Shown piece after piece: positions 18,535-35,803 of a DNA stretch of 35,803 nt (position 1 is its first letter; each line of letters starts with the position of its first letter). The DNA is from Bacillota bacterium (GTDB lineage Bacteria; Bacillota; Clostridia; Peptostreptococcales; Anaerovoracaceae), in NCBI GenBank assembly GCA_029006195.1, contig JAQXGH010000029.1:1-35803 (forward strand), in the 5' to 3' direction. The notes beneath the pieces are model-generated. The model worked only from the letters and a program-made list of their open reading frames with translations, was not told the origin of the DNA and ran no database searches. A program made the position numbers and the translations under genes.

Positions 18535-18562
18535 AAGCCGGGAGTGATCTCGGCTTATTTTG
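18535..18562. terminator. Terminator, glsA / sigma-54 activator
   Basis: AAGCCGGGA (18535-18543), loop GTGA, TCTCGGCTT (18548-18556) form a hairpin with one G-T pair, followed by ATTTTG. It overlaps the stop codon of the converging regulator and probably works in both directions. Confidence 0.75.
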
Positions 18563-20003
18563 TTCTAAGTCTTCTATATAATGTAGATTCGCTAATACCC
18601 AGAGCATCTGCTGCCTGACGTTTACCTTCGAGTGTCCAGCCGTATGAATCCAGGGCTCTTTTTATGATTTCTTGCTCCGCCTCGGCGAGTTGCTCCTTTA
18701 GATTGCCTATAGACGATACGACAGGGCTCGCCTCTGCAAAGGCTTCAGGCTCCTTCTCGGTGATCCTTTCCGGAAGGTCCACTAAGCGTATGGCGTTGGT
18801 TGTCGTCATGTTGATCGCGTATTCTATTACATTTTCCAGCTCTCTGACGTTGCCGGGCCACTTGTAACTCAGGAGTGTAGCCTTTGCGCCTGGCTGAATG
18901 AAGTAGACTGGCTTTCCCAGCTTCGATGAGAATTTGTCAATTGCGTGATTCAGCAGGAGTTCAATGTCATCGGGACGCTCTCTTAAAGCAGGAATCTTGA
19001 TCGGAATAACGTTAAGCCTGAAGTAAAGATCTTCTCTGAATTGCTTTTCGGCGATAAGCTTTTCTAGATCTTTATTGGTAGCTGAAATAACGCGAACATC
19101 GATGTCGATAGGTTTAGTGGCGCCTATTGGATCTATCTGATGGTTCTGCAGGGTGGTCAGGAGCTTAGCCTGGAGGTGAAGCGGCATATCGCCGATTTCA
19201 TCCAGGAATATCGTTCCGCCTTCAGCTAGCTGAAATTTGCCTAGCTTGCCACTTCTTTCTGCTCCGGTAAATGCCCCTTTGACGTAACCGAATAGTTCGC
19301 TTTCTAGAAGTGTCTCTGGAATAGCAGCGCAGTTAATGCTTATGAAAGGCTTGTTTTTTCTGGGACTTTCTGTATGTATTGCACGGGCTAGAAGGTCCTT
19401 GCCTGTTCCGCTTTCACCGGTAATTAAAATGGTGGAATCGCTTGATGAGATCTGCATAGCTCTTTGCTTTAATAACATCATGGCAGAACTTGTTCCGATT
19501 ATAGTGTCAAAAGATGTGTTGCTTTCTCCTGGCAGCAGCGACTCGATTTTGTCCTGTAATTTAATATTGCTGATTTCGGCTTCATATTTACCGGATATGA
19601 GTTCGGCCATACTGCGAAGGAAACTTGTGAATTCGTTTACTTTTGACATTATAAGCTGTCTCTGCGTTTCAGTAAGTGCGATCAGACCGATAAGTCCGAC
19701 AGCTTCCCCGCCAAGTCTGATTGGGCAGCACAGTTCGGCTTTCTCATCTTCCATTGCTCTGTAGTTTGGATCAAGGAGAGGATTGAAATTTATGTATTCG
19801 TGATTTTCTCTGAGGCATGTTGCGTAAACCAGATTACCATTTAAGTCTCCGTTCTCTTCATATTCGCCTATTTTCTCATAGTACCTTCCAGTACCTCCAA
19901 TTATCATAAGGTTTTCATCTACTATTTCAGTTTCCAGTTCTATAGCTGCGGTAATAGCTGTTGCAGCCTGCTGGACTGTATCCTTGATCATAAAAAGTGA
20001 CAT
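18555..20003 (-). CDS. Sigma-54-dependent activator with N-terminal GAF-like sensor
   Basis: The 482-residue protein has three parts. Residues 1-140 are a GAF-like sensor with Cys63, Cys92 and Cys93. Residues 165-400 are the sigma-54 AAA+ domain: Walker A GESGTGK (196-202), the sigma-54 contact loop GAFTGA (243-248), Walker B IFLDE (265-269) and an arginine finger region. Residues 440-482 are a Fis-type helix-turn-helix (AADALGISESTLYRRLR). It binds enhancer DNA, senses a small ligand through the GAF-like part and opens sigma-54 promoters by ATP hydrolysis. It diverges from the aminotransferase-dehydrogenase operon, and three identical-type palindromes plus a -24/-12 site lie between them, so it should control that operon. 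AAAGGAG precedes ATG 20003. Confidence 0.93.
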   Translation of the reverse strand: MSLFMIKDTVQQAATAITAAIELETEIVDENLMIIGGTGRYYEKIGEYEENGDLNGNLVYATCLRENHEYINFNPLLDPNYRAMEDEKAELCCPIRLGGEAVGLIGLIALTETQRQLIMSKVNEFTSFLRSMAELISGKYEAEISNIKLQDKIESLLPGESNTSFDTIIGTSSAMMLLKQRAMQISSSDSTILITGESGTGKDLLARAIHTESPRKNKPFISINCAAIPETLLESELFGYVKGAFTGAERSGKLGKFQLAEGGTIFLDEIGDMPLHLQAKLLTTLQNHQIDPIGATKPIDIDVRVISATNKDLEKLIAEKQFREDLYFRLNVIPIKIPALRERPDDIELLLNHAIDKFSSKLGKPVYFIQPGAKATLLSYKWPGNVRELENVIEYAINMTTTNAIRLVDLPERITEKEPEAFAEASPVVSSIGNLKEQLAEAEQEIIKRALDSYGWTLEGKRQAADALGISESTLYRRLRTK

Positions 20004-20023: not shown

Positions 20024-20083
20024 ATTGTCAATTATGACATTGATTGTCAATTTTGACAATAAGATATTGTCAAAATTGACAAT
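20024..20083. promoter_or_regulatory. Three palindromic enhancer (UAS) sites
   Basis: Three 18-base sites share the consensus ATTGTCA-n4-TGACAAT: ATTGTCAATTATGACATT (20024-20041), ATTGTCAATTTTGACAAT (20043-20060) and ATTGTCAAAATTGACAAT (20066-20083). Their starts are 19 and 23 bases apart. They lie 50-110 bases before the -24 box, where sigma-54 activators bind, and directly upstream of the activator gene itself, so autorepression is also possible. Confidence 0.85.
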
Positions 20084-20130: not shown

Positions 20131-20147
20131 TTGGCATCAAAATTGCT
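20131..20147 (+). promoter_or_regulatory. Sigma-54 promoter of the aminotransferase operon
   Basis: TTGGCAT, five bases, TTGCT at 20131-20147 matches the -24/-12 consensus TTGGCACn5TTGCT with one change. The GG (20133-20134) and GC (20145-20146) dinucleotides are 12 apart, as required. Transcription should start near 20158. Confidence 0.88.
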
Positions 20148-20208
20148 TTATATATAAGCATGAAAATCATAATAATAAATTATTACATAATTGTTAAAGG
20201 AGATAGAA

Positions 20209-21612
20209 ATGATTACAGATAAGTTAAGCCCGTACAGATTAGTAACAGTTGAAGAATTAGCTAAGCTTAGAGCTAGAGAAAATGAAACATTCATGAAGAG
20301 AACTCCTAAGAGTAAGGCTCTCTTTGATGCAGCTCATCAGAATCTGCTTGATGGTGTTCCAATGCCATGGATGGCAGACTGGGGAACAGATCATCCGATT
20401 TTCCTCGAAAAGGCTAAAGATGCTAGATGCTATGACGTGGACGGCAACGAATACATAGACTTCTGTCTTGGTGATACTGGCGCTATGTTTGGTCACTCAC
20501 CAGATGCTACTGCAGCAACAATCGCAGAAAGAGCTTACATGGGTATTACTACAATGATGCCTACAGAAGATGCTCTTGAAATCGGTAAGGAACTGGCAGA
20601 AAGATTCGGACTTCCTACTTGGCAGGTTGCAATGACAGCGACAGAAGCTAACAGATACGTTATCAGAAACTGCAGAACATTAACTGGCAGACCTAAAGTA
20701 CTGGTTATGCAGGAATGCTACCATGGTTCACTTGATGAAACACTTCCACATATCGGCGAAGACGGTAAGCTTTGCCTTAGATCACCATGGGATATGAATC
20801 CTGGTCTTCCTAAGGATCAGCTGACTAGAGTAGTTGAATTCAACGATGTTGAAGCTCTCGAAAGAGAACTGGCATATGAAGACGTAGCTTGCGTTCTGCT
20901 GGAACCAGTTATGACAAACTGCGGTATGGTTCTTCCTGATGAAGGTTATCTGGATGCTGTTAGAGAGCTTTGCACAAAGTATGGCTCATACATGGTCATC
21001 GACGAAACTCATACAATGTCAGAAGGATGGGGCGGCTACACTAGAGCTCACAATCTCAAGCCTGACTTCGTAACTCTCGGTAAGTCAATCGCTGGTGGTG
21101 TTCCTATCGCTGTATATGGCTTCACTAAGGAAGTTACAGATAAGATCGGAACTATGTATGGTAACGGCGGCGTATCAGACCCAATGGGTATCGGCGGTAC
21201 TCTGGCTGCTAACCAGTTCGCTATCGCTTGCATGAGAACTCAGCTTTCAAAGGTTGCTACTAAGGAAGCTTATGAAAGAATGTTTGCTGGCCTTAACAGA
21301 CTGGCTGACGGCATCGAAGCAGTTTTAGCTAAGTACAATGTACCTTGGTCACTGACTAGATCAGGCGCTAGATGTGAACTGCAGTTCATGCCAACAAGCC
21401 CGATCAATGGTACTGACGCTAAGAACAACTTTGACTGGGAACTCATGTACTACACTCACATTTACCTCCACAACAGAGGTATTGTAATCACTCCGTTCCA
21501 TAATATGATGCTGGTATCACCTGTAACTTCAGATGAAGATATCGATAAGCTGATCCAGTGCTGGGATGACTGTCTTAAGGAACTGACAGAAGTTGGTACT
21601 TACAATAGATAA
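20209..21612 (+). CDS. Class III PLP aminotransferase, glutamate-1-semialdehyde-aminomutase-like
   Basis: From ATG 20209 the protein has 467 residues. It follows the class III pattern: a DVDGNEYIDF beta-hairpin, the PLP-phosphate region MTATEANRYV, VMQECYHGSLD, the Asp-containing MVIDETHTMSEG and the Schiff-base lysine in TLGKSIAGGVPIA. An in-frame TTG at 20191 would put the GGAG ribosome site inside the coding region, so I reject that start. The protein has an unusual length of N-terminus compared with HemL, and it lies with two dehydrogenases rather than haem genes, so it more likely deaminates an amino acid or amino alcohol. The substrate is unknown. The sigma-54 promoter lies 62-78 bases upstream. 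Confidence 0.88.
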   Translation: MITDKLSPYRLVTVEELAKLRARENETFMKRTPKSKALFDAAHQNLLDGVPMPWMADWGTDHPIFLEKAKDARCYDVDGNEYIDFCLGDTGAMFGHSPDATAATIAERAYMGITTMMPTEDALEIGKELAERFGLPTWQVAMTATEANRYVIRNCRTLTGRPKVLVMQECYHGSLDETLPHIGEDGKLCLRSPWDMNPGLPKDQLTRVVEFNDVEALERELAYEDVACVLLEPVMTNCGMVLPDEGYLDAVRELCTKYGSYMVIDETHTMSEGWGGYTRAHNLKPDFVTLGKSIAGGVPIAVYGFTKEVTDKIGTMYGNGGVSDPMGIGGTLAANQFAIACMRTQLSKVATKEAYERMFAGLNRLADGIEAVLAKYNVPWSLTRSGARCELQFMPTSPINGTDAKNNFDWELMYYTHIYLHNRGIVITPFHNMMLVSPVTSDEDIDKLIQCWDDCLKELTEVGTYNR

Positions 21613-22485: not shown

Positions 22486-23286
22486 ATGGCAAAAGGCTTT
22501 ATTAATTTCGAAGGACAGGTTGCACTCGTAACAGGTGCAGGCAGCCCTACAGGCATAGGTTTTAACGCAGCGAGAATAATAGGCGAATGCGGTGGTAAAA
22601 TCGCAGTGGTTGCAACTACAGAAAGAATCTATCAGAGAGTAGAAGAACTCGAGGCTTTAGGCATAGAAGCTAAGGGCTACATCGCTAACCTTATGGACCG
22701 TCAGCAGGTAAATGATATGGTCAAGGCTGTTATCGCTGACTTTGGCAAAATTGATGTACTTGTAAACAATGCCGGCATGGTGCAGGTTGGTGTGGAAGAA
22801 GACTTCTCAGGTTTCCTGGAAATGACTTATGAAAGCTGGGATGATTCTATCGATCGTAACCTGAACATTCCGTTTAACGTAACAAAGGCAGTTCTTCCTT
22901 ATATGGTAGAAGCTAATTACGGCAGAATCGTTAACACTTCAAGTGTAACGGGTCCTATCGTAAGTAACCCTGGTGAAGGTGCTTATTCAGCTGCAAAGGC
23001 TGCAATCCTCGGTATGAGCCGTGCTATCGCTATAGAATTTGGTGATAGAGGAATCACAATCAATAACGTACTTCCGGGATGGATCGGTACAGCGGCACAA
23101 ACTGAAGCGGAAGCGGCTGGTGGATTAAACACTCCACTTAGAAGAAGTGCACGTGCTGAAGAAGTTGCTAATGCTATCGTTTTCCTGGCATCAAAAGAAG
23201 CTTCATACATTACAGGTGAGGCTATAGTTGTTGATGGCGGTAATACAATTCAGGAGTATAAAGGCCCGTCAGAACTATATTATTAA
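22486..23286 (+). CDS. Short-chain dehydrogenase/reductase (SDR), second of two
   Basis: The 266-residue protein has the SDR glycine motif TGAGSPTGIG (16-25) with an insertion compared with the usual TGxxxGIG, NNAG near 100, NTSSVTG with the active Ser, and YSAAK as the catalytic Tyr-x-x-x-Lys. The C-terminal YITGEAIVVDGGNT is typical of FabG-like members. The second beta strand ends in VATTERI rather than Asp, which leans to NADP(H). It is in one operon with the preceding SDR (GGAGGAAG site). The pair may form two steps or a heteromer; the substrate is unknown. Confidence 0.88.
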   Translation: MAKGFINFEGQVALVTGAGSPTGIGFNAARIIGECGGKIAVVATTERIYQRVEELEALGIEAKGYIANLMDRQQVNDMVKAVIADFGKIDVLVNNAGMVQVGVEEDFSGFLEMTYESWDDSIDRNLNIPFNVTKAVLPYMVEANYGRIVNTSSVTGPIVSNPGEGAYSAAKAAILGMSRAIAIEFGDRGITINNVLPGWIGTAAQTEAEAAGGLNTPLRRSARAEEVANAIVFLASKEASYITGEAIVVDGGNTIQEYKGPSELYY

Positions 23287-23302
23287 AAATTTAACAAAGT
23301 CT

Positions 23303-23338
23303 AAAAGGGGGCTTTTGTGCAAAAAGCTCCCTTTTTAA
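23303..23338 (+). terminator. Terminator of the aminotransferase-SDR operon
   Basis: A 14-base stem, 23303-23316 with 23322-23335, contains one G-T pair and a 5-base loop, and is followed by T-rich sequence. It closes the sigma-54 operon. Confidence 0.85.
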
Positions 23339-23461: not shown

Positions 23462-23974
23462 ATGGCAGCTAAAGGTTGTAATTGCGAAGCAAACAGAAGA
23501 GAGCAGTTCAAGGAACTGGAACCTGTTATGCAGAAATTAGCTGACGTTCCAGGCAGTTTGATAACGATCCTTCAGGAAGCTCAGGGAATTTATGGCTATC
23601 TTTCAACTGAGCTGATTAATTACATTTCAGAAAGAACAGGGATCACTCCAGCGAGAATATATGGAGTAGCAACATTCTACGCGCAGTTCAGACTACAGCC
23701 GATAGGAAAGTATCTGATCATGCTCTGTAAGGGAACAGCGTGTCACGTTAATGGTGCGGATATGATAGAAGAAGCTATCTGTGATCACCTTGGTATCGTA
23801 GATGGAGAAACAACAGAAGATGAAATCTTCACACTTAATAATGTAGCTTGTCTGGGTTGTTGTTCACTTGCTCCAGTAATGATGATCAGAAGTGCAGAAG
23901 GCGATGAGACTTTCGGCAACCTCACTAAAGATAAAGTAATCAAAATTCTTGATGATCTTAAAGAAAGAGCTTAG
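23462..23974 (+). CDS. NuoE-like [2Fe-2S] subunit of a flavin oxidoreductase complex
   Basis: The 170-residue protein is the thioredoxin-like [2Fe-2S] subunit known as NuoE, HydC, HylA or StnA in different complexes. The cluster ligands are Cys89, Cys94, Cys130 and Cys134 (CKGTAC and CLGCC). The N-terminal helical part GIYGYLSTELI, then GVATFYAQF, is also typical. It partners with the NuoF-like subunit, 11 bases downstream, to connect NAD(H)/FMN with the iron-sulfur chain. The operon has no hydrogenase gene. Cytosolic. Confidence 0.92.
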   Translation: MAAKGCNCEANRREQFKELEPVMQKLADVPGSLITILQEAQGIYGYLSTELINYISERTGITPARIYGVATFYAQFRLQPIGKYLIMLCKGTACHVNGADMIEEAICDHLGIVDGETTEDEIFTLNNVACLGCCSLAPVMMIRSAEGDETFGNLTKDKVIKILDDLKERA

Positions 23975-23985
23975 GAGGTAAGGAA

Positions 23986-25734
23986 ATGAGAATCGTAGTA
24001 GGACAGGGCAGCTGTGGCGTAGCAACTGGAGCTAAGAAAACAGCTCAGGAATTTGAAAATATATTAAATGAAAACAAAATGGATATTCCTGTTTCAGTAA
24101 CAGGCTGTATTGGTACATGTTATCTTGAACCGATCGTTGATATCTATAATGATGACGAAGAACTTACAAGATACGTAGGAGTTCAGCCTGCAGACGTAGA
24201 GGCAATATTCAAATCACATATAATTGATGGCAAAGTATTAGAAGAAAAGGCGATCACAGCAGACGATAGCCTTTTCCTCGAAAAGCAGGAAAGAATCGTT
24301 CTCAGAAACTGTGGCGTTATCAATCCTGAAAATATAGATGAATACATCGCACGCGGTGGATATAAGGCAATCGAGCATGCACTTAAAGACCTCACTCCTG
24401 AAGAAGTAATTGAAGAAATCAAGATTTCAGGCCTGAGAGGTAGAGGTGGTGCGGGCTTCCCAACATGGTTCAAGTGGAACGCAGCTAAGGAAGCTCCAGG
24501 ACATGAGAAGTATCTGGTATGTAACGCCGATGAAGGTGACCCAGGTGCATTCATGGACAGATCAGTACTGGAAGGTGACCCACATTCACTTCTCGAAGGC
24601 ATGATCATCGCAGGTTATGCCATGGGTGCAAGTGAAGGTATCATTTACTGCCGTGCTGAATATCCACTGGCTATCAAGAGACTTGAAATAGCAATGGCTC
24701 AGGCTAGAGAAAGAGGCCTTCTGGGCAAGAAAATCTTTGGCAGAGGTTTCGATTTTGACATCTCCATCAAGGCTGGTGCAGGCGCATTCGTATGCGGCGA
24801 AGAAACTGCACTCATCGCTTCACTTGAAGGTCAGAGAGGTATGCCTAGACTTAAGCCTCCATTCCCTGCAGAACAGGGTTACTGGAGAAAGCCAACTGAT
24901 ATCAATAATGTAGAAACACTGGCTAACGTTCCATGGATCCTCATAAACGGGGGTAAAGCTTTTGCAGAATACGGCACTGATAAGTCATCAGGTACTAAGG
25001 TATTCGCACTGGCTGGTAAGATCAAGAGAGGCGGCCTGGTAGAAGTTCCAATGGGAATGACTCTCCGTGACATCCTCTTTGGCATCGGCGGCGGAATCAA
25101 GAATGACAGAGAGTTCAAGGCAGTTCAGATGGGCGGCCCTTCAGGCGGATGTATTCCGGCTGAGCTCATCGATACTCCTGTAACATATGAAGATATTTCA
25201 AAGACAGGCGCTATCGTTGGCTCCGGCGGTATGATAGTAATGGACGAAGATACTTGCATGGTTGATATGGCAAGATACTTCCTCAACTTCACAAGAGACG
25301 AATCATGCGGCAAGTGCACATACTGCAGAGTAGGCACTAAGAGAATGCTCGAGATCCTGGAAAGAATCACTGAGGGTCAGGGCAAGCCTGGCGACATCGA
25401 ACTTCTGGAAGAACTGGCTAGTAAGATCAAGGACGGTGCGCTTTGTGGTCTGGGACAGACAGCACCAAATCCTGTTCTCACAACAATCAAGTATTTCAGA
25501 AACGAATACGAAGATCATATCTATAGAAAGAAATGTACTGCCAAGTCATGTAAGGCACTCATTTCCTACGAAATCACTGATGCGTGCAAAGGCTGCACAG
25601 CCTGCACTAAGAAGTGCCCTGTTAACGCAATTTCAGGTTCAGTTAAGAAAAAGCACGAAATCGATATGGAACTTTGCGTTAAGTGCGGCAGATGTGCAAG
25701 CAGCTGTAAGTTTGATGCAATAATTAAGAAGTAG
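23986..25734 (+). CDS. NuoF-like FMN/NAD(H)-binding subunit with ferredoxin tail
   Basis: The 582-residue protein has a thioredoxin-like [2Fe-2S] N-terminus (Cys10, Cys41, Cys45), the NADH/FMN domain with GRGGAGFP (152-159) and CNADEGDPGAFMDR near 182-195, an SLBB segment, the [4Fe-4S] motif ESCGKCTYCRVGT and, at the end, two ferredoxin-type [4Fe-4S] motifs (CKGCTACTKKC and CVKCGRCASSC). This is the diaphorase subunit of HydABC, HylABC and StnABC type complexes, where it is the site of electron bifurcation or confurcation. The next gene starts 10 bases downstream. It should oxidise or reduce NAD(H). Confidence 0.93.
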   Translation: MRIVVGQGSCGVATGAKKTAQEFENILNENKMDIPVSVTGCIGTCYLEPIVDIYNDDEELTRYVGVQPADVEAIFKSHIIDGKVLEEKAITADDSLFLEKQERIVLRNCGVINPENIDEYIARGGYKAIEHALKDLTPEEVIEEIKISGLRGRGGAGFPTWFKWNAAKEAPGHEKYLVCNADEGDPGAFMDRSVLEGDPHSLLEGMIIAGYAMGASEGIIYCRAEYPLAIKRLEIAMAQARERGLLGKKIFGRGFDFDISIKAGAGAFVCGEETALIASLEGQRGMPRLKPPFPAEQGYWRKPTDINNVETLANVPWILINGGKAFAEYGTDKSSGTKVFALAGKIKRGGLVEVPMGMTLRDILFGIGGGIKNDREFKAVQMGGPSGGCIPAELIDTPVTYEDISKTGAIVGSGGMIVMDEDTCMVDMARYFLNFTRDESCGKCTYCRVGTKRMLEILERITEGQGKPGDIELLEELASKIKDGALCGLGQTAPNPVLTTIKYFRNEYEDHIYRKKCTAKSCKALISYEITDACKGCTACTKKCPVNAISGSVKKKHEIDMELCVKCGRCASSCKFDAIIKK

Positions 25735-25744
25735 GAGGAAAGAT

Positions 25745-28700
25745 ATGCAGTATTATAGCCTTAGTATAGATGGCAAGGAAGTTCAGGGTGTACCTGGACA
25801 GACTATATTAGAAGTATGCAGAGAAAATGATATCTTTATCCCTACACTCTGCTACGACGAAAGAACAAGAATTTACGGATCATGCGGAATCTGCGTTGTA
25901 GAAGTAGACGGCAACCCTAAACTGGTAAAAGCCTGCGCTACAGCCATCGCGCCTAAGATGATCGTAAAGACAAATACAGAAAGAGTAATCGAATCAAGAA
26001 AGACAAATCTCGAACTTCTTCTGTCAAACCACACTGGTGACTGTAGACCACCATGCGTTCGTGCGTGTCCTGCACAGACAGACTGTCAGGGCTATGTTGG
26101 TCTTATCGCTAACGGAGAATATGGCAAGGCATTAGAACTTGTTAAGGATAGACTTCCGCTGCCAGCATCACTTGGTAGAGTTTGTCCACATCCTTGCGAA
26201 AAAGATTGCAGAAGAGGTCTTATCGATGAACCTATCTCAATTCAGATGCTCAAGCGTTTCGTTGCTGATAAAGACCTGGCAGGCGATGAAAGATTCGTAC
26301 CAGAAATCGGTAAGGAAACAAGAAAGAGAGTTGCAATAATCGGTGGCGGCCCTATGGGTCTTTCCGCAGCATATTTCTTAAGACAGATGGGTCATGGGGT
26401 AACTATATATGAAGCAATGCCTAAGCCAGGCGGAATGCTTAGATATGGTATCCCTGAATATAGACTTCCGAAGGCTGTACTGGAAGACGAAATCAAAACT
26501 ATCCAGATGATGGGCGTTGATATCCAGTGCAACACAAAAATCGGTGAAGATATTTCATTCGAAGCTATTCAGGCAGATTACGATGCGGTACTTCTGGGTA
26601 TTGGAGCGTGGGTATCAACAGGCGTTGGTTGCCCTGGTGAAGACGCAGAGAACATTATTGGCGGTATCGACTTCCTCAGAAGAGTTGTTAGAAACCAGCC
26701 AATGCACCTGGGTAAGAAGGTTGCAATCGTAGGCGGCGGTAACACAGCAATGGATGCGTGCAGAACTGCTGTCAGACTGGGAGCTGATGAAGTTTACAAT
26801 ATTTACAGAAGAACTAAGGACGAAATGCCTGCTGACAGAGTGGAAATTGAAGAAGCTGAAGAAGAAGGCGTAATCTTCAAGAACCTTACTAATCCTATCG
26901 AATTTGTGAAGGATGAAGATGGAGCTGTTAAGCAGGTTAGACTTCAGTGCATGGACCTTGGTGAACCTGATGCATCAGGAAGAAGAAAACCTATACCTGT
27001 TGAAGGCAAAATCGAAACACTTGATGTTGACACCGTGATACTGGCTATCGGACAGGCGGTAGATGCTAGCTTCTTTGACTGCGACAAGACAAGAAAGGGA
27101 GGCATTGCCTATGATACTGAAACATTCATGACAAGCATCCCTGGCGTTTTCGCAGGCGGTGACTGCGGTAATGATAAGATCAGCATTGCTGTAGAAGCTA
27201 TCGCTGATGCTAAGAAGGTATCAACAGTAATCGATGAATACCTGGCTGGCGTTAAGGTTAAGTATGAAGAACCATACTTTGTACATAGAGATGACATAAC
27301 AGAAAAGACATTCGAAGACAGAGAAAGAATGTGCAGACCTGAAATTCCTCAGCTTTCAGCTGAAGAAAGAAAGAACAACTTCAGTGAAGTAATCCCTGAA
27401 GGATTCACAGAAGATCAGGCTGAAGAAGAAGCAAACAGATGTCTGGAATGCGGATGCCATGACTACTTCGAATGTAAGCTGGTTTCGCTTGCAAACGAAT
27501 ATGAAGTTAAGCCGGAAAGATTCGCGGGTGAAAAGAACATTATCGAATACGAAGATGAACATCCATTCATTCTCAGAGACCCTAATAAGTGCATCCTCTG
27601 CGGCAGATGCGTTAGAGTATGTGCACAGGTAATGAGAATCGGTGCTTTAGGTCTTGTTGGCAGAGGATTTGATACTGTTATCAAACCTAATATGGAAAAA
27701 GCCCTCGCAGAATCAGGCTGCATCTCATGTGGACAGTGCGTAACAGTATGTCCAACAGGTGCACTTCAGGAAAAGACTTCAATCGCAAAGGCTGTACCGC
27801 TCAAGAAGGAAGAAACAGTTACAACATGTCCTTATTGTTCAATCGGATGTACTATCGTACTGGAAACATGCGGTAACCTGCTTATTCGTGCGGTACCTGA
27901 TAAGAATGGTGCAGTAAACAAGGGTATTTCATGCGGTAGAGGTAAATTCGGCTTCGACTGCGCAACTTTAGAAAACAAGCTTATGCTGCCGCTCGTTAAG
28001 GGCAAGGACGGCTTCAGAGAAACAGATTATCATGAATCACTTACTCTGATCGCTAAGAGAATGCAGTCAGTAGCAGCTAAGTACGGCAGAGATGCAATAG
28101 GGGTTTCAATTTCAGATAGATTCACAAACGAAGAAGCATACGCTATGAAGAGAATGGCAGAAGCAATGGGAGCTAAGGTATTCTCAGCAAACAGCATAAA
28201 GAGCGGTATGGAACCGGTTCTCGGATTTGATGCTTCACCAAATACTATCAGTGAACTGGATAGTACAGATTTCATCCTGGTGGCTGGTTACAGCCCTAAG
28301 GATAACCCGATTATTCAGGTAAGACTTAAGGTTGCCGTAAATAACGGTGCTAAAGTAGTAGTTGTAAATCCTAAGGAATCACCGATCTCAGTTCCAGGTC
28401 TTGTTAAGGAAGTTTATACTGATGACCTGACTCTTCTGAAGGAAGTAGCAAAGGCTATAGTAGACATCAAGGGCAAGCAGGATATCCCAGGCTTTGATAA
28501 GTTCGCGAGATCATTAAGAAAGATCGAGCCAAGCGAAGAAGCTATTGAAATCGCTAAGATGTATGTTGAGGCTAAGAAGGCGATGATCGTATTCAGCCAG
28601 CACAAGATCACAGTTGAAGCGGCTACACTTCTGGCAAATATGGCTGTTGCTTCAGGTCACATCGGTGGACCAAGAGACGGTATCCTTCAGCTTAAGGGTA

Positions 28701-29257
28701 AGAATAATGGCCAGGGCCTCATCGATATGGGTATCACAGAAGGTATCGAAACAATGGAAGACCTCAAGGCAATGCTGGTATTCGGCGAAGAATTTGATAT
28801 CGATCCAGATCAATTCGACTTCCTGGCAGTATGTGATACACATATGACACAGCTCGCAGCTAAGGCTGACGTTGTACTCCCATGTAATGGTTTCGCAGCG
28901 GTAAGGGGTACATTTACAAATACAGAAAGAAGACTTCAGCGCGTTCGCAGGGCAATAGATGAAGGCCTTGAAATGAGCAACTGGGAAGTTGCCAAGTCTA
29001 TTGCTCACATATTCGAAGTAGACTGTGAATGGGAAAGCACAGCTGACATAAGAGATGAAATGGAACTTACAGTACCTAAGTACACTAAGGCTGTAGTGGG
29101 ACAGATTCTCGGAGGCGTTCTTACTCCAGAAAATATCTGCATGCAGCCTATCAAGGGAAATGATTTCGCGGATATCAACCCTTGCACAGACAGCTTAATG
29201 AATGTAATTTCAGAAAGACTGCCACAGCGTGCTAATCCAACAGATCCAGTGAAATAA
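25745..29257 (+). CDS. [2Fe-2S]-GltD/NfnB-[4Fe-4S]-NuoG/FdhA-like redox fusion
   Basis: The 1170-residue chain has five parts. Residues 1-75: plant-type [2Fe-2S] ferredoxin, Cys36, 47, 50, 64. Residues 95-190: Cys-rich GltD entry domain. Residues 195-505: FAD/NAD(P)H oxidoreductase with GGGPMG (200-205), GGGNTAMD (330-337) and the NADP-type YRRTKDEMPA (354-363). Residues 610-675: two [4Fe-4S] clusters (CILCGRC and CISCGQC). Residues 695-1100: molybdopterin oxidoreductase fold with a CPYCSIGC...SCGRG cluster, but the position where FdhA carries Cys or Sec reads SANSIKSGM (814-822), so a Mo/W ligand is absent, as in NuoG. The C-terminal cofactor-binding domain is also missing. With its NuoE- and NuoF-like partners it resembles Sporomusa-type Nfn transhydrogenases, linking NADH, NADPH and ferredoxin; this function is inference. 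Confidence 0.85.
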   Translation: MQYYSLSIDGKEVQGVPGQTILEVCRENDIFIPTLCYDERTRIYGSCGICVVEVDGNPKLVKACATAIAPKMIVKTNTERVIESRKTNLELLLSNHTGDCRPPCVRACPAQTDCQGYVGLIANGEYGKALELVKDRLPLPASLGRVCPHPCEKDCRRGLIDEPISIQMLKRFVADKDLAGDERFVPEIGKETRKRVAIIGGGPMGLSAAYFLRQMGHGVTIYEAMPKPGGMLRYGIPEYRLPKAVLEDEIKTIQMMGVDIQCNTKIGEDISFEAIQADYDAVLLGIGAWVSTGVGCPGEDAENIIGGIDFLRRVVRNQPMHLGKKVAIVGGGNTAMDACRTAVRLGADEVYNIYRRTKDEMPADRVEIEEAEEEGVIFKNLTNPIEFVKDEDGAVKQVRLQCMDLGEPDASGRRKPIPVEGKIETLDVDTVILAIGQAVDASFFDCDKTRKGGIAYDTETFMTSIPGVFAGGDCGNDKISIAVEAIADAKKVSTVIDEYLAGVKVKYEEPYFVHRDDITEKTFEDRERMCRPEIPQLSAEERKNNFSEVIPEGFTEDQAEEEANRCLECGCHDYFECKLVSLANEYEVKPERFAGEKNIIEYEDEHPFILRDPNKCILCGRCVRVCAQVMRIGALGLVGRGFDTVIKPNMEKALAESGCISCGQCVTVCPTGALQEKTSIAKAVPLKKEETVTTCPYCSIGCTIVLETCGNLLIRAVPDKNGAVNKGISCGRGKFGFDCATLENKLMLPLVKGKDGFRETDYHESLTLIAKRMQSVAAKYGRDAIGVSISDRFTNEEAYAMKRMAEAMGAKVFSANSIKSGMEPVLGFDASPNTISELDSTDFILVAGYSPKDNPIIQVRLKVAVNNGAKVVVVNPKESPISVPGLVKEVYTDDLTLLKEVAKAIVDIKGKQDIPGFDKFARSLRKIEPSEEAIEIAKMYVEAKKAMIVFSQHKITVEAATLLANMAVASGHIGGPRDGILQLKGKNNGQGLIDMGITEGIETMEDLKAMLVFGEEFDIDPDQFDFLAVCDTHMTQLAAKADVVLPCNGFAAVRGTFTNTERRLQRVRRAIDEGLEMSNWEVAKSIAHIFEVDCEWESTADIRDEMELTVPKYTKAVVGQILGGVLTPENICMQPIKGNDFADINPCTDSLMNVISERLPQRANPTDPVK

Positions 29258-29303
29258 ACATATTAATAAATGGTTATTGGTGTATTTTATGGAGGGTTGG
29301 TAT

Positions 29304-30668
29304 ATGTTAGAAAATGGTATTACCCGCGACTTTATATTAGAGAACATATCGGGAATAATAGTTACAGATACCGATGGTAAAGTACTTTATTACAATCAGG
29401 ATGCCGCTAAGTATTTCGTTATACCTCTTGATAGCGTCATCGGAACTGATATTTCGGTAGCTTTTCCTGAGTCTAAGATGCCGGAAGATCTGTTTATTGA
29501 TGAACCGAAGCCGGTTTACTATCACACTGAAATCGGCATTGGAGTATCGGTGCATGTTCCTTTGTTTGATGAGGGTAAAAGAATTGGGCTTTTGGAATAT
29601 GACCTTTTATCAAACCCTAGACTTCTATATGAATTCCCTAACAGCTATTCGAGATTTCTTGATGATGCTCTTAAAAGCATCAGGTTCAAGATGAGAGGTC
29701 AGGGCGTTGAAGCCAGATATACCATAGATAGTATAATAGGCCACTCTAAGCAGATAGATAATCTGAAGAAACAGATAGCTGTCGCTGCTAAGTCGAATTC
29801 GCAGGTAATAATTACAGGCGAGACAGGAACTGGTAAAGAAATGGTAGCTCAGGCTATTCACAATTTGAGCGAACGCAGAAATCACAAGATGATTTCGCTC
29901 AATGCGGCAGCCATTCCTGAAAATCTAGTGGAATCAGAACTTTTCGGATATAGAGAAGGTGCATTTACGGGCGCTAAAAATGGAGGAATGAAGGGTAAGT
30001 TCGAACTTGCAGACAAAAGTACGCTTTTCATCGATGAAATCAGTAAACTTCCTCTTGCTGTACAGCCGAAACTTCTCCGTGTCCTTCAAGAGAAATGCAT
30101 AGAGCCAATAGGTTCTGACGAAGTTATTCCTGTGGACGTTAGAATAATAGTAGCAACTAACGAAGATCTTAGGGCTCTTGTTGAACAGGGTAAATTCCAG
30201 GCTGACTTATATTACCGTATCAACGTACTTAATATACAGACGCCGCCGTTAAGATCCAGATTTGAAGATTTGCCTGACTTGATGATGGCAAAGATAGATG
30301 AACTGAATTATCTTCTTGGCAAAAATATAACCGGTGTTAACCCGCATGTTTACGAGGAAATTTCTAAGTATAACTGGCCTGGAAATGTCAGAGAACTACA
30401 TAACAAACTTGAGCAGGCCATGAACTACGCTCAGGGAGAAGAACTTCAAGTAGAAGATTTCTTCTGGGATGAATCAACACCGTTAAACACCAGAGTTGTA
30501 TTTGATGTTGATGAGAAACCTATTGATGCAGTACGTGATAAAGCCGAGAAAGAATTGATAATCAGAGTAATCGAGCTCTGTAACGGCAATAAATCTGAAG
30601 CTGCGAAATACCTGAAAATAAATAGAACATTACTTTATCAAAAGATGAAAAGATTAGGAATAAAGTAA
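29304..30668 (+). CDS. Sigma-54-dependent activator with PAS sensor
   Basis: The 455-codon frame (454 residues) from ATG 29304 follows a GGAGG site; an earlier ATG at 29277 has no such site. Residues 8-105 are a PAS domain (IIVTDTDGKVLYYNQDAAKYF). Residues 140-375 are the sigma-54 AAA+ module: Walker A GETGTGK (172-178), GAFTGA (219-224), Walker B LFIDE (241-245) and NWPGNVRELHN. The C-terminus has a Fis-type helix-turn-helix (NKSEAAKYLKINRTLLYQKM). It should sense a ligand or redox state through PAS and activate the sigma-54 promoter at 30859, just downstream, for the NhaC-amidohydrolase operon. Confidence 0.93.
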   Translation: MLENGITRDFILENISGIIVTDTDGKVLYYNQDAAKYFVIPLDSVIGTDISVAFPESKMPEDLFIDEPKPVYYHTEIGIGVSVHVPLFDEGKRIGLLEYDLLSNPRLLYEFPNSYSRFLDDALKSIRFKMRGQGVEARYTIDSIIGHSKQIDNLKKQIAVAAKSNSQVIITGETGTGKEMVAQAIHNLSERRNHKMISLNAAAIPENLVESELFGYREGAFTGAKNGGMKGKFELADKSTLFIDEISKLPLAVQPKLLRVLQEKCIEPIGSDEVIPVDVRIIVATNEDLRALVEQGKFQADLYYRINVLNIQTPPLRSRFEDLPDLMMAKIDELNYLLGKNITGVNPHVYEEISKYNWPGNVRELHNKLEQAMNYAQGEELQVEDFFWDESTPLNTRVVFDVDEKPIDAVRDKAEKELIIRVIELCNGNKSEAAKYLKINRTLLYQKMKRLGIK

Positions 30669-30674
30669 GCTACA

Positions 30675-30708
30675 ACACTGTATGTTTATACATACAGTGT
30701 ATTTTTTT
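30675..30708 (+). terminator. Terminator of the PAS activator gene
   Basis: ACACTGTATG (30675-30684) and CATACAGTGT (30691-30700) form a perfect 10-base stem with a 6-base loop, followed by ATTTTTTT. Confidence 0.9.
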
Positions 30709-30726: not shown

Positions 30727-30850
30727 CGTTGAAAAATGAAGGGTCTGAAGAGTGTTAATATTCTGACAACTCAAAGTGTCTGTTTTGAAATACAGTCTCC
30801 AAACAGGCACAAAGGCTACAATCGTTGAAAAATAGCGGTTTGTAGCCTTT
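30727..30850. promoter_or_regulatory. Enhancer-like region: two inverted repeats and a direct repeat
   Basis: GTGTCTGTTT (30776-30785) pairs with AAACAGGCAC (30801-30810) with one G-T mismatch. AAAGGCTACAA (30811-30821) pairs perfectly with TTGTAGCCTTT (30840-30850). CGTTGAAAAAT occurs at 30727-30737 and again at 30823-30833, 96 bases apart, the second copy inside the second repeat's centre. The region lies directly before the -24 box. It is the natural place for activator binding, though the second repeat is very close to the promoter. Confidence 0.55.
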
Positions 30851-30858
30851 GCGTAAAC

Positions 30859-30879
30859 TTGGCACGCTAGTTGCTTTTT
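30859..30879 (+). promoter_or_regulatory. Consensus sigma-54 promoter of the second NhaC operon
   Basis: TTGGCACGCTAGTTGCT at 30859-30875 matches TTGGCACn5TTGCT at every fixed position. GG (30861-30862) and GC (30873-30874) are 12 apart. Transcription should start near 30886, 42 bases before the ATG. Confidence 0.95.
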
Positions 30880-34595: not shown

Positions 34596-34955
34596 ATGAA
34601 GCTTACTACTAAAGAACAAGAGCGCGTGCTTCTTTTTGGCGTTGCTGAAATCTCAAGAAGAAGATGGAGAAGAGGCGTTAAGCTCAACTACATCGAAGCT
34701 TCTGCAATTATAATGGACGAACTTCTCGAAAGAGGTAGAGCGGGCACAAATGATATCGGTGAACTTATAGAGATAGGTTCTCAGATAATCACAGCAGAAG
34801 ACGTAATGGAAGGTACACCTGCGTTAATGCCGTGCATTATGTTCGAAGTTCAATTCCCTGATGGTAATAAGCTGGTTACAGTGCATGATCCAATCAGATT
34901 AGAAAAGAAGGAAGAAGCAATTCCTGTGGAAGAACTTCTCTCCATGACATATTAA
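34596..34955 (+). CDS. ureA: Urease subunit gamma
   Basis: The 119-residue protein matches Ure[21 protein letters not shown] at the N-terminus, [23 protein letters not shown], and [14 protein letters not shown] near 90-103. Normal UreA ends close to this point at about 100 residues, so the last 17 or so residues are an extra tail ([16 protein letters not shown]). It is a structural subunit of urease, which splits urea to ammonia and carbamate. GGAG precedes ATG 34596, and ureB follows after 22 bases. Confidence 0.95.
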
Positions 34956-34977
34956 CATCGGAAAGGAAGGTAACAAT

Positions 34978-35349
34978 ATGACACATCCAATTGGTGAAAT
35001 CATTTTCGCTGACGGCGAAATTGAAATCAACAGCGGTAGAGAAACAAAGAAAGTTACTGTTACTAATTCCGGTGACAGAACAATTCAGGTCTGCTCACAC
35101 TACCATTTCTTCGAAGCTAATAACGCGCTGAAGTTTGATAGAGAAGCGGCATTCGGCTATAGACTTGATATTCCTGCTGGTTCAGCTATCAGATTCGAAC
35201 CGGGCGAAGAAAAGGAAGTTCGGCTCACAACATTCGCAGGAGAAAGAAAACTCTACGGATTCCAGGGATGGACTATGGGATGCGTAGATGATCCTAAGGT
35301 TAAAGAAGCAGCTATCGCGAAAATGAAGGAAGCGCTTAAGGAGGATTAA
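34978..35349 (+). CDS. ureB: Urease subunit beta
   Basis: The 123-residue protein carries the UreB hallmarks: [39 protein letters not shown] at about 40-60, and [24 protein letters not shown]. It is slightly longer than the usual 100-105 residues because of a C-terminal helix-forming tail. It completes the structural trimer with UreA and UreC. GGAAAGGAAGG precedes the ATG, and ureC starts 1 base after its stop. Confidence 0.95.
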
Positions 35350-35350
35350 A

Positions 35351-35803
35351 ATGGCAGTAAAGTTAACACGTCAGGAATACTGTGAGCTTCACGGCCCTAC
35401 AGTCGGTGACAAGCTTCATCTTGGCGATACAGGTCTGATCGCTGAAATTGAGAAAGACTATTGCGCTGGCACTTATGGCGATGAAATGACATGGGGCAGC
35501 GGCAAGACAGATAGAGACGGCATGGGTCAGCAGGCAGGTCTTCCTGTCGAAGGCACTGACGTATTAGACGTAGTTGTAACATGTGCCACTATCATCGATC
35601 CAATGCTCGGAATTATCAAGGCTGACATCGGTATCAAGGATGGCAGGATCGTTGGCATCGGTAAATCAGGAAATCCAGACACAATGGACATTACTCCAGG
35701 CCTCGTTGTAGGCGTTGGTACAGAAGAAGTTTGTGCTGAAGGCCTCATCGTAACTCCTGGCGGAATCGACGTACACATTCACTTCGAAAGCCCGGGACAG
35801 GCA
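35351..35803 (+). CDS. ureC: Urease subunit alpha, N-terminal part (runs off window)
   Basis: The first 151 residues of UreC are present: [25 protein letters not shown] at the start, [41 protein letters not shown] and [17 protein letters not shown] at the edge. The HIH pair gives two nickel ligands of the active site. The usual sequence after these is T-H-I-H-[FW]-x-x-P-Q-Q, so Val before HIH and ESPGQ after are departures. The carbamylated lysine and the remaining ligands lie beyond the window. GGAGG occurs inside the end of ureB, so translation is coupled. Confidence 0.95.

Follow-up and report, generated by a model that had tools for sequence, protein, structure and literature searches.

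The stnABC operon and its domain content

We analysed a stretch of 35,803 nucleotides from a Bacillota bacterium of the Anaerovoracaceae (assembly GCA_029006195.1, contig JAQXGH010000029.1), hereafter the window, focusing on three adjacent open reading frames (ORFs) of 170, 582 and 1170 amino acids on its plus strand (positions 23462-29257). These very probably encode the StnABC transhydrogenase (Sporomusa-type Nfn, also called Nfn-Bfu), and we name them stnA, stnB and stnC, with 11 bases between the first two and 10 between the last two. The first gene, stnA (23462..23974), encodes a 170-residue NuoE/HydC-like protein of the thioredoxin-like [2Fe-2S] kind (PF01257, E 5.4e-48), with cysteines at 89, 94, 130, 133 and 134 and one predicted [2Fe-2S] cluster, that by homology would gate the bifurcating module. 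It is followed by stnB (23986..25734), whose 582-residue NuoF/HydB-like product combines a flavin mononucleotide (FMN) and NAD(H) site with a C-terminal 2x[4Fe-4S] ferredoxin-like domain (PF01512, PF10589 and Fer4; Nuo51 FMN-binding domain, NADH_4Fe-4S and a C-terminal 4Fe-4S dicluster region). The last and longest, stnC (25745..29257), encodes 1170 residues whose N-terminal half carries a [2Fe-2S] domain (5-78) and a GltD/NfnB-like flavin adenine dinucleotide (FAD)/NADP(H) part made up of GltD-type Fer4_20 (100-177) and Pyr_redox_2 (195-489), and whose C-terminal half holds a NuoG-like Fe-S part and an FdhF-like domain (Nqo3-type dicluster 607-674, molybdopterin Fe4S4 690-738, molybdopterin oxidoreductase 749-1086).

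A preliminary description of this DNA had placed a three-gene NuoE/NuoF/long-fusion operon at 23462-29257, and the ORFs lie at exactly these coordinates with Pfam content that agrees with it. Its statement that the operon lacks a hydrogenase likewise holds, as the Pfam scan reported no [FeFe]-hydrogenase catalytic domain (PF02906) in the 1170-residue protein; nor did the ORF listing and Pfam reveal an NfnA (PyrK-like) subunit among the three genes. What did not stand is the suggestion that the subunits are unusually joined in one 1170-residue chain. Sporomusa ovata StnC is a 1172-residue fusion of [2Fe-2S], GltD, NuoG and inactive FdhF domains (PMC10482914, PMC7483475) with the same layout, and one long chain is therefore the standard form, which rules out the fused chain as a novelty.

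Family placement

To place the three proteins, we compared them with all PDB sequences, and for each the top two matches were the complexes 8oh5 and 9bov, the former being S. ovata StnABC (PMC10482914, data availability). StnB ranked 8oh5_B first (927 bits, residues 1-579), then 9bov_B (890) and 9n5u_B (796), with hydrogenase B subunits at 731 bits and lower and an FDH (formate dehydrogenase) beta chain at 436, while the best matches of StnA were 9bov_C (184 bits) and S. ovata StnA, 8oh5_A (168 bits). For StnC, 9bov_A (1044 bits) and 8oh5_C (998 bits, residues 3-1113) matched across nearly the whole chain, followed at lower scores by 9n5u_A of NfnABC (633), 4ylf_B (314; we take 4ylf to be Thermotoga NfnAB and its B chain to be NfnB) and an FDH alpha chain (282).

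Residue checks point the same way. Lys170 (the strictly conserved ligand of cluster C7), Arg239 and Cys114 are important in S. ovata StnC (PMC10482914), and the StnC studied here has K170, C114 and R240, the last equivalent to S. ovata R239 through an alignment offset of one at that place. Both StnC alignments that we made (19 and 18 rows) have K170 and R240 in every row, whereas C114 is invariant in the 19-row alignment only, and its variability in the 18-row one agrees with the remark in PMC10482914 that Cys114 is not strictly conserved. In addition, 27 StnC cysteines are invariant across the 19-row alignment, and an NADP-type GGGNTA motif lies at StnC 330-335. For StnB, a motif check and alignment to 8oh5_B show that its NAD/FMN motif and C-terminal clusters are preserved.

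A quick StnB tree of 68 rows (60 Stn-type, 8 HydB), with branches assessed by the Shimodaira-Hasegawa-like approximate likelihood-ratio test (SH-aLRT), separated the Stn-type from the HydB rows by a single branch with support of 99. This check by phylogeny had been proposed in the preliminary description, and StnB indeed groups with other Stn and apart from HydB. Within the Stn side, StnB of the window sits in a 10-row clade (SH-aLRT 99) that unites one named metagenome-assembled genome (MAG) with nine rows from the genus, of which it is one. Desulfosporosinus sp. BG is also on this side with a StnC of 1204 residues, the length that Kremp 2020 gives for its Stn in Table 1.

Together, the sequence matches, residue checks and tree bear out the assignment to the Sporomusa-type Nfn family, and we put the probability that the operon encodes a StnABC transhydrogenase at roughly 90%. 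Several observations weigh against this. The StnB tree draws on SH-aLRT as its sole support measure, includes three long-branch rows and has no S. ovata row; the same genome holds a canonical-looking NfnAB for the identical reaction, so that Stn may have come to serve a different partner or run in a different direction; and the Wood-Ljungdahl context in which Stn was characterised was not found, with the CdhC/acetyl-CoA synthase (ACS) search, in which only two methanogens among the controls scored positive, giving 0 of 41 genus genomes.

Proposed mechanism and alternative readings

Gene order, domains, family placement and diagnostic residues are seen directly in this DNA; for cofactors, electron path, bifurcation and reaction we rely on analogy with S. 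ovata Stn, for which the steps were proposed or demonstrated (PMC7483475, PMC10482914). By that analogy, a non-bifurcating FAD held by the GltD-like part of StnC would exchange hydride with NADP(H), and electrons would then travel singly along the Fe-S clusters of StnC until they reach the FMN of StnB. The [2Fe-2S] cluster of StnA would gate the StnAB module, which would couple NAD(H) at the FMN with ferredoxin (Fd) at the C-terminal clusters of StnB, for a net and reversible reaction of 2 NADP+ + NADH + Fd(red) <-> 2 NADPH + NAD+ + Fd(ox). The FdhF-like domain at the end of StnC is catalytically dead and probably has a structural role.

Given this FdhF-like part, we considered whether the genes encode a bifurcating NAD-dependent formate dehydrogenase with NuoEF partners, as StnC from residue 561 onward shares 32-34% identity with four selenocysteine FDHs from the same order and has a partial match, under the cut-off, to TIGR01591. 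However, when the FdhF-like part was aligned with these enzymes, the segment before and at the active-site selenocysteine-histidine pair proved deleted or replaced in StnC relative to all four; FDH chains also score far below Stn chains in the PDB comparison, and S. ovata Stn is described as having no formate activity (PMC7483475). We therefore regard an FDH as highly improbable, in keeping with the preliminary description, which had seen no active formate dehydrogenase in the operon. Equally remote is a HydABC-type electron-bifurcating hydrogenase, to which the HydC-like StnA and HydB-like StnB would be suited, but StnC is without an H-cluster domain, StnB and HydB fall apart in the tree, and PF02906 went unmatched in this 85%-complete genome, whereas it is present in 35 of the 41 genus genomes.

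Somewhat less remote, though still unlikely, is a complex built like Stn that has kept the fold and now serves a different third partner or does not bifurcate, such as an NADPH-dependent oxidoreductase resembling Nso. Such a changed role would follow from NfnAB already doing the transhydrogenase job in the same cell, and Stn and NfnAB indeed occur together here and in 25 of 37 genus genomes; moreover, according to Kremp 2020 the catalysis of NfnI is not the same as that of NfnII in P. furiosus, so that doubled systems can diverge. Against it, every diagnostic residue and StnC cysteine tested is retained, as are the NAD/FMN motif and C-terminal clusters of StnB, and no additional window gene is retained beside Stn in the 20 genus loci inspected. 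We thus keep to a StnABC transhydrogenase as the preferred reading.

Distribution and genome context

The host genome is a 1.69-Mb MAG, 85% complete, so that absences from it are not firm, and it carries one StnC. Within the genus, StnC was found in 31 of 37 genomes (26 nearly whole, 5 partial), and its closest named relatives (about 64-79% identity) are Bacillota MAGs including Clostridiales Family XIII and Emergencia (Anaerovoracaceae), several of them from horse, goat and water-buffalo guts. We surveyed 40 loci, 20 of them from the genus, with up to 8 kb of flank that contig ends sometimes limited, and stnA, stnB and stnC were adjacent in all 40, with StnB split into two ORFs in L086. The neighbourhood is not shared: none of the 40 has a short-chain dehydrogenase/reductase (SDR), NhaC-like or amidohydrolase gene like those of the window, and the non-Stn matches to window genes were only 22-27% identical, apart from one sigma-54 regulator (46%, L085). 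A family scan of one distant neighbour, a DNA polymerase delta-like protein, yielded nothing further. As for related energy metabolism, the host genome has RnfC (452 bits, above the cut-off; 14 of 41 genus genomes) and a formyl-tetrahydrofolate synthetase. As a separate observation, several genus members carry a GltD-like protein of about 620 residues that shares a stretch with the [FeFe]-hydrogenase catalytic domain (G013:C55 12558-15505, L204, L206 and similar), possibly an NADP-linked hydrogenase.

Coexistence with NfnAB

The NfnAB-like genes of the host genome form an adjacent pair on contig C44 (L002, 519-1367 and 1348-2769), after the end of an ORF that by eye resembles pyruvate:ferredoxin oxidoreductase. 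The NfnA-like protein matches 5jca_S (NfnI) at 285 bits and 4ylf_A at 236 bits, and the NfnB-like protein matches 4ylf_B at 556 bits and 5jca_L at 482 bits; this NfnB carries Glu at the position of StnC K170, which is the state of Nfn according to PMC10482914.

Kremp 2020 describes Stn and Nfn as almost mutually exclusive in 48 acetogen genomes, naming two with both. Across a 398-genome sample of the phylum, StnC was counted in 77 and NfnA in 248, with both in 11 against 48 expected (Fisher p 3.6e-22, in a test that treats genomes as independent, though they are not). Here NfnA was accepted at E 1e-45 or better, and StnC at more than 500 bits with a match starting within the first 60 query residues, by which G300 (no N-terminus) was dropped; as scoring was confined to the top two first-look candidates in each genome, a StnC could be missed. 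StnC-like proteins of 38-42% identity were kept as Stn in this count, and of the 11 genomes in which Stn and Nfn coincide, 10 have only such distant proteins, the eleventh being the window's own. Within the genus, by comparison, Stn and Nfn occur together in the 25 of 37 genomes given above, and in 12 of the 15 with completeness of 90% or more and contamination of 5% or less. Partial matches make up 5 of 31 in the genus count of StnC and 2 of 29 in that of NfnA. Elsewhere in the order, StnC was found in 15 of 24 genomes, NfnA in 4 of 24 (E below 1e-70) and both in one (G059). Among open-licence PMC papers we found no report of this pattern of Stn and Nfn in the genus.

A tentative interpretation is that the usual exclusion has broken down in this genus, where a bacterium of small genome size retains NfnAB, beside the end of the pyruvate:ferredoxin oxidoreductase-like gene, and StnABC as a unit of its own. 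Stn and Nfn might then work in opposing directions or be subject to distinct redox regulation (a Rex-like site precedes stn, see below), together forming a regulated NADPH/NADH/ferredoxin valve. A genus that carries both transhydrogenases, set against strong avoidance elsewhere, offers a natural setting for studying why a cell retains Stn or Nfn.

StnC chains that lack the FdhF-like domain

Among the StnB-tree rows, 16 have a StnC of 675-803 residues from which most or all of the FdhF-like domain is missing (L186-L193, L158, L161, L164, L166, L170, L171, L173 and L178), and 14 of these short chains end no more than 28 residues from the second dicluster motif. In the 8 loci fetched for a short-looking StnC, stnA and stnB lie alongside in every case, and the StnC measures 681-700 residues in seven and 803 in one. 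Labelling the rows as long (44) or short (16) gives at least 7 changes on the quick StnB tree; the cut was set at 600-830 residues, and StnC chains of 891-999 residues therefore counted as long. Deletion of the FdhF domain yielded no active S. ovata Stn complex (PMC10482914), and a natural StnC without this domain offers a test of whether the domain is really needed for assembly.

Regulatory elements and neighbouring genes

Between the upstream SDR gene and stnA lies a terminator-like hairpin with a T run (23303..23335, plus strand; minimum free energy -19.0 kcal/mol, z -3.56, none of 200 shuffles as stable), which suggests that stnABC begins its own transcription unit. Just before it, and overlapping the end of the SDR gene, is a Rex-operator-like palindrome (23280..23297, plus strand) with one mismatch to TTGTTAANNNNTTAACAA, the sole site in the window with at most one mismatch; such a site turned up in 2 of 100 shuffles. 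The host genome carries a Rex-type N-domain gene, and the palindrome is a weak candidate for Rex control of stn. Sites with up to two mismatches were found in 6 of 38 stn upstream regions, against about 0.8% per region in mononucleotide shuffles, and within the genus in only 3 of 21 (window included). Of these 21 regions, 11 (L062-L071 and L081; counted by eye) have a different palindrome, TTGTATACAA, close to the start of stn, and the two kinds of site suggest different regulators of stn inside one genus.

Downstream, 19 bases past stnC, a sigma-54 activator with PAS, AAA and Fis-HTH domains (29277..30668, plus strand; PF00158, PF02954, PF00989) is possibly co-transcribed with stnABC, and its gene is followed by a hairpin and T run at 30675-30700. 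It is outside the conserved operon, as no matching gene was found directly beside Stn in the flanks of 40 relatives; the sigma-54 regulator of L085 is of the other type and 3 ORFs away from Stn. We found no support for sigma-54 control of stn itself, since the two best -24/-12 sites precede a transaminase and the NhaC-like gene and not stnA, and the 23 window sites with up to 2 mismatches are within chance (mean 18.2, sd 4.4). The site ahead of the NhaC-like gene (30860-30875) matches the -24/-12 consensus perfectly, and an 11-base inverted repeat just upstream of it (30811-30850, by eye) may serve the 29277-30668 regulator as its activator site. The other site (20132-20147, one mismatch) lies in the gap that separates a class-III transaminase gene (20191-21612) from a divergently oriented sigma-54 activator gene (18555-20003), and the same gap holds a long AT-rich inverted repeat (20043-20083). 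At the far end of the window (34596-35803), a urease-like gene cluster begins, its subunits judged by eye, and runs off the contig end.

Relation to described enzymes

The three genes are most likely a further member of the known Stn family, the coexistence with Nfn in this genus and the short StnC being of more interest. As the enzyme is already described, what is added is chiefly its presence in a lineage without a detected acetyl-CoA synthase gene.

The closest characterised system, S. ovata StnABC (8oh5/8oh9; PMC7483475, PMC10482914), has three genes in the same order and the same domain order, with StnA/StnB/StnC lengths of 178/584/1172 residues against 170/582/1170 here, and shares K170, C114, the Arg near the FAD and the inactive FdhF domain. 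The present operon differs in adjoining SDR genes and a sigma-54 regulator and not a Wood-Ljungdahl cluster, in a genome where no ACS gene was found and which also carries NfnAB. The 9bov/9bp5 complex (chains of 1178/584/176 residues) is the nearest relative with a solved structure for both StnC (1044 bits) and StnA (184 bits); its 1178-residue chain equals in length the Caldicellulosiruptor StnC of Kremp 2020 Table 1, which may be its source.

More distant is NfnABC (9n5u; 963/602/154 residues), next after both Stn complexes for StnB and StnC, which has the same three-part layout but a shorter C-terminal part and lower scores (StnC 633, StnB 796 bits). NfnAB (5jca, which is NfnI; 4ylf) shares the GltD-like NADP(H)/FAD domain and the net reaction, whereas an NfnA homologue is absent from the present operon and the cluster ligand is Glu in NfnB and Lys170 in StnC; NfnAB also bifurcates at the FAD of NfnB and not at an FMN (PMC10482914). 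Finally, within the HydABC/BfuABC superfamily (PMC9304861), StnAB corresponds to the bifurcating BfuBC core and Nfn-Bfu is a named Type 1 member, the third-substrate domain of Stn taking NADP(H) where that of the hydrogenases takes H2.

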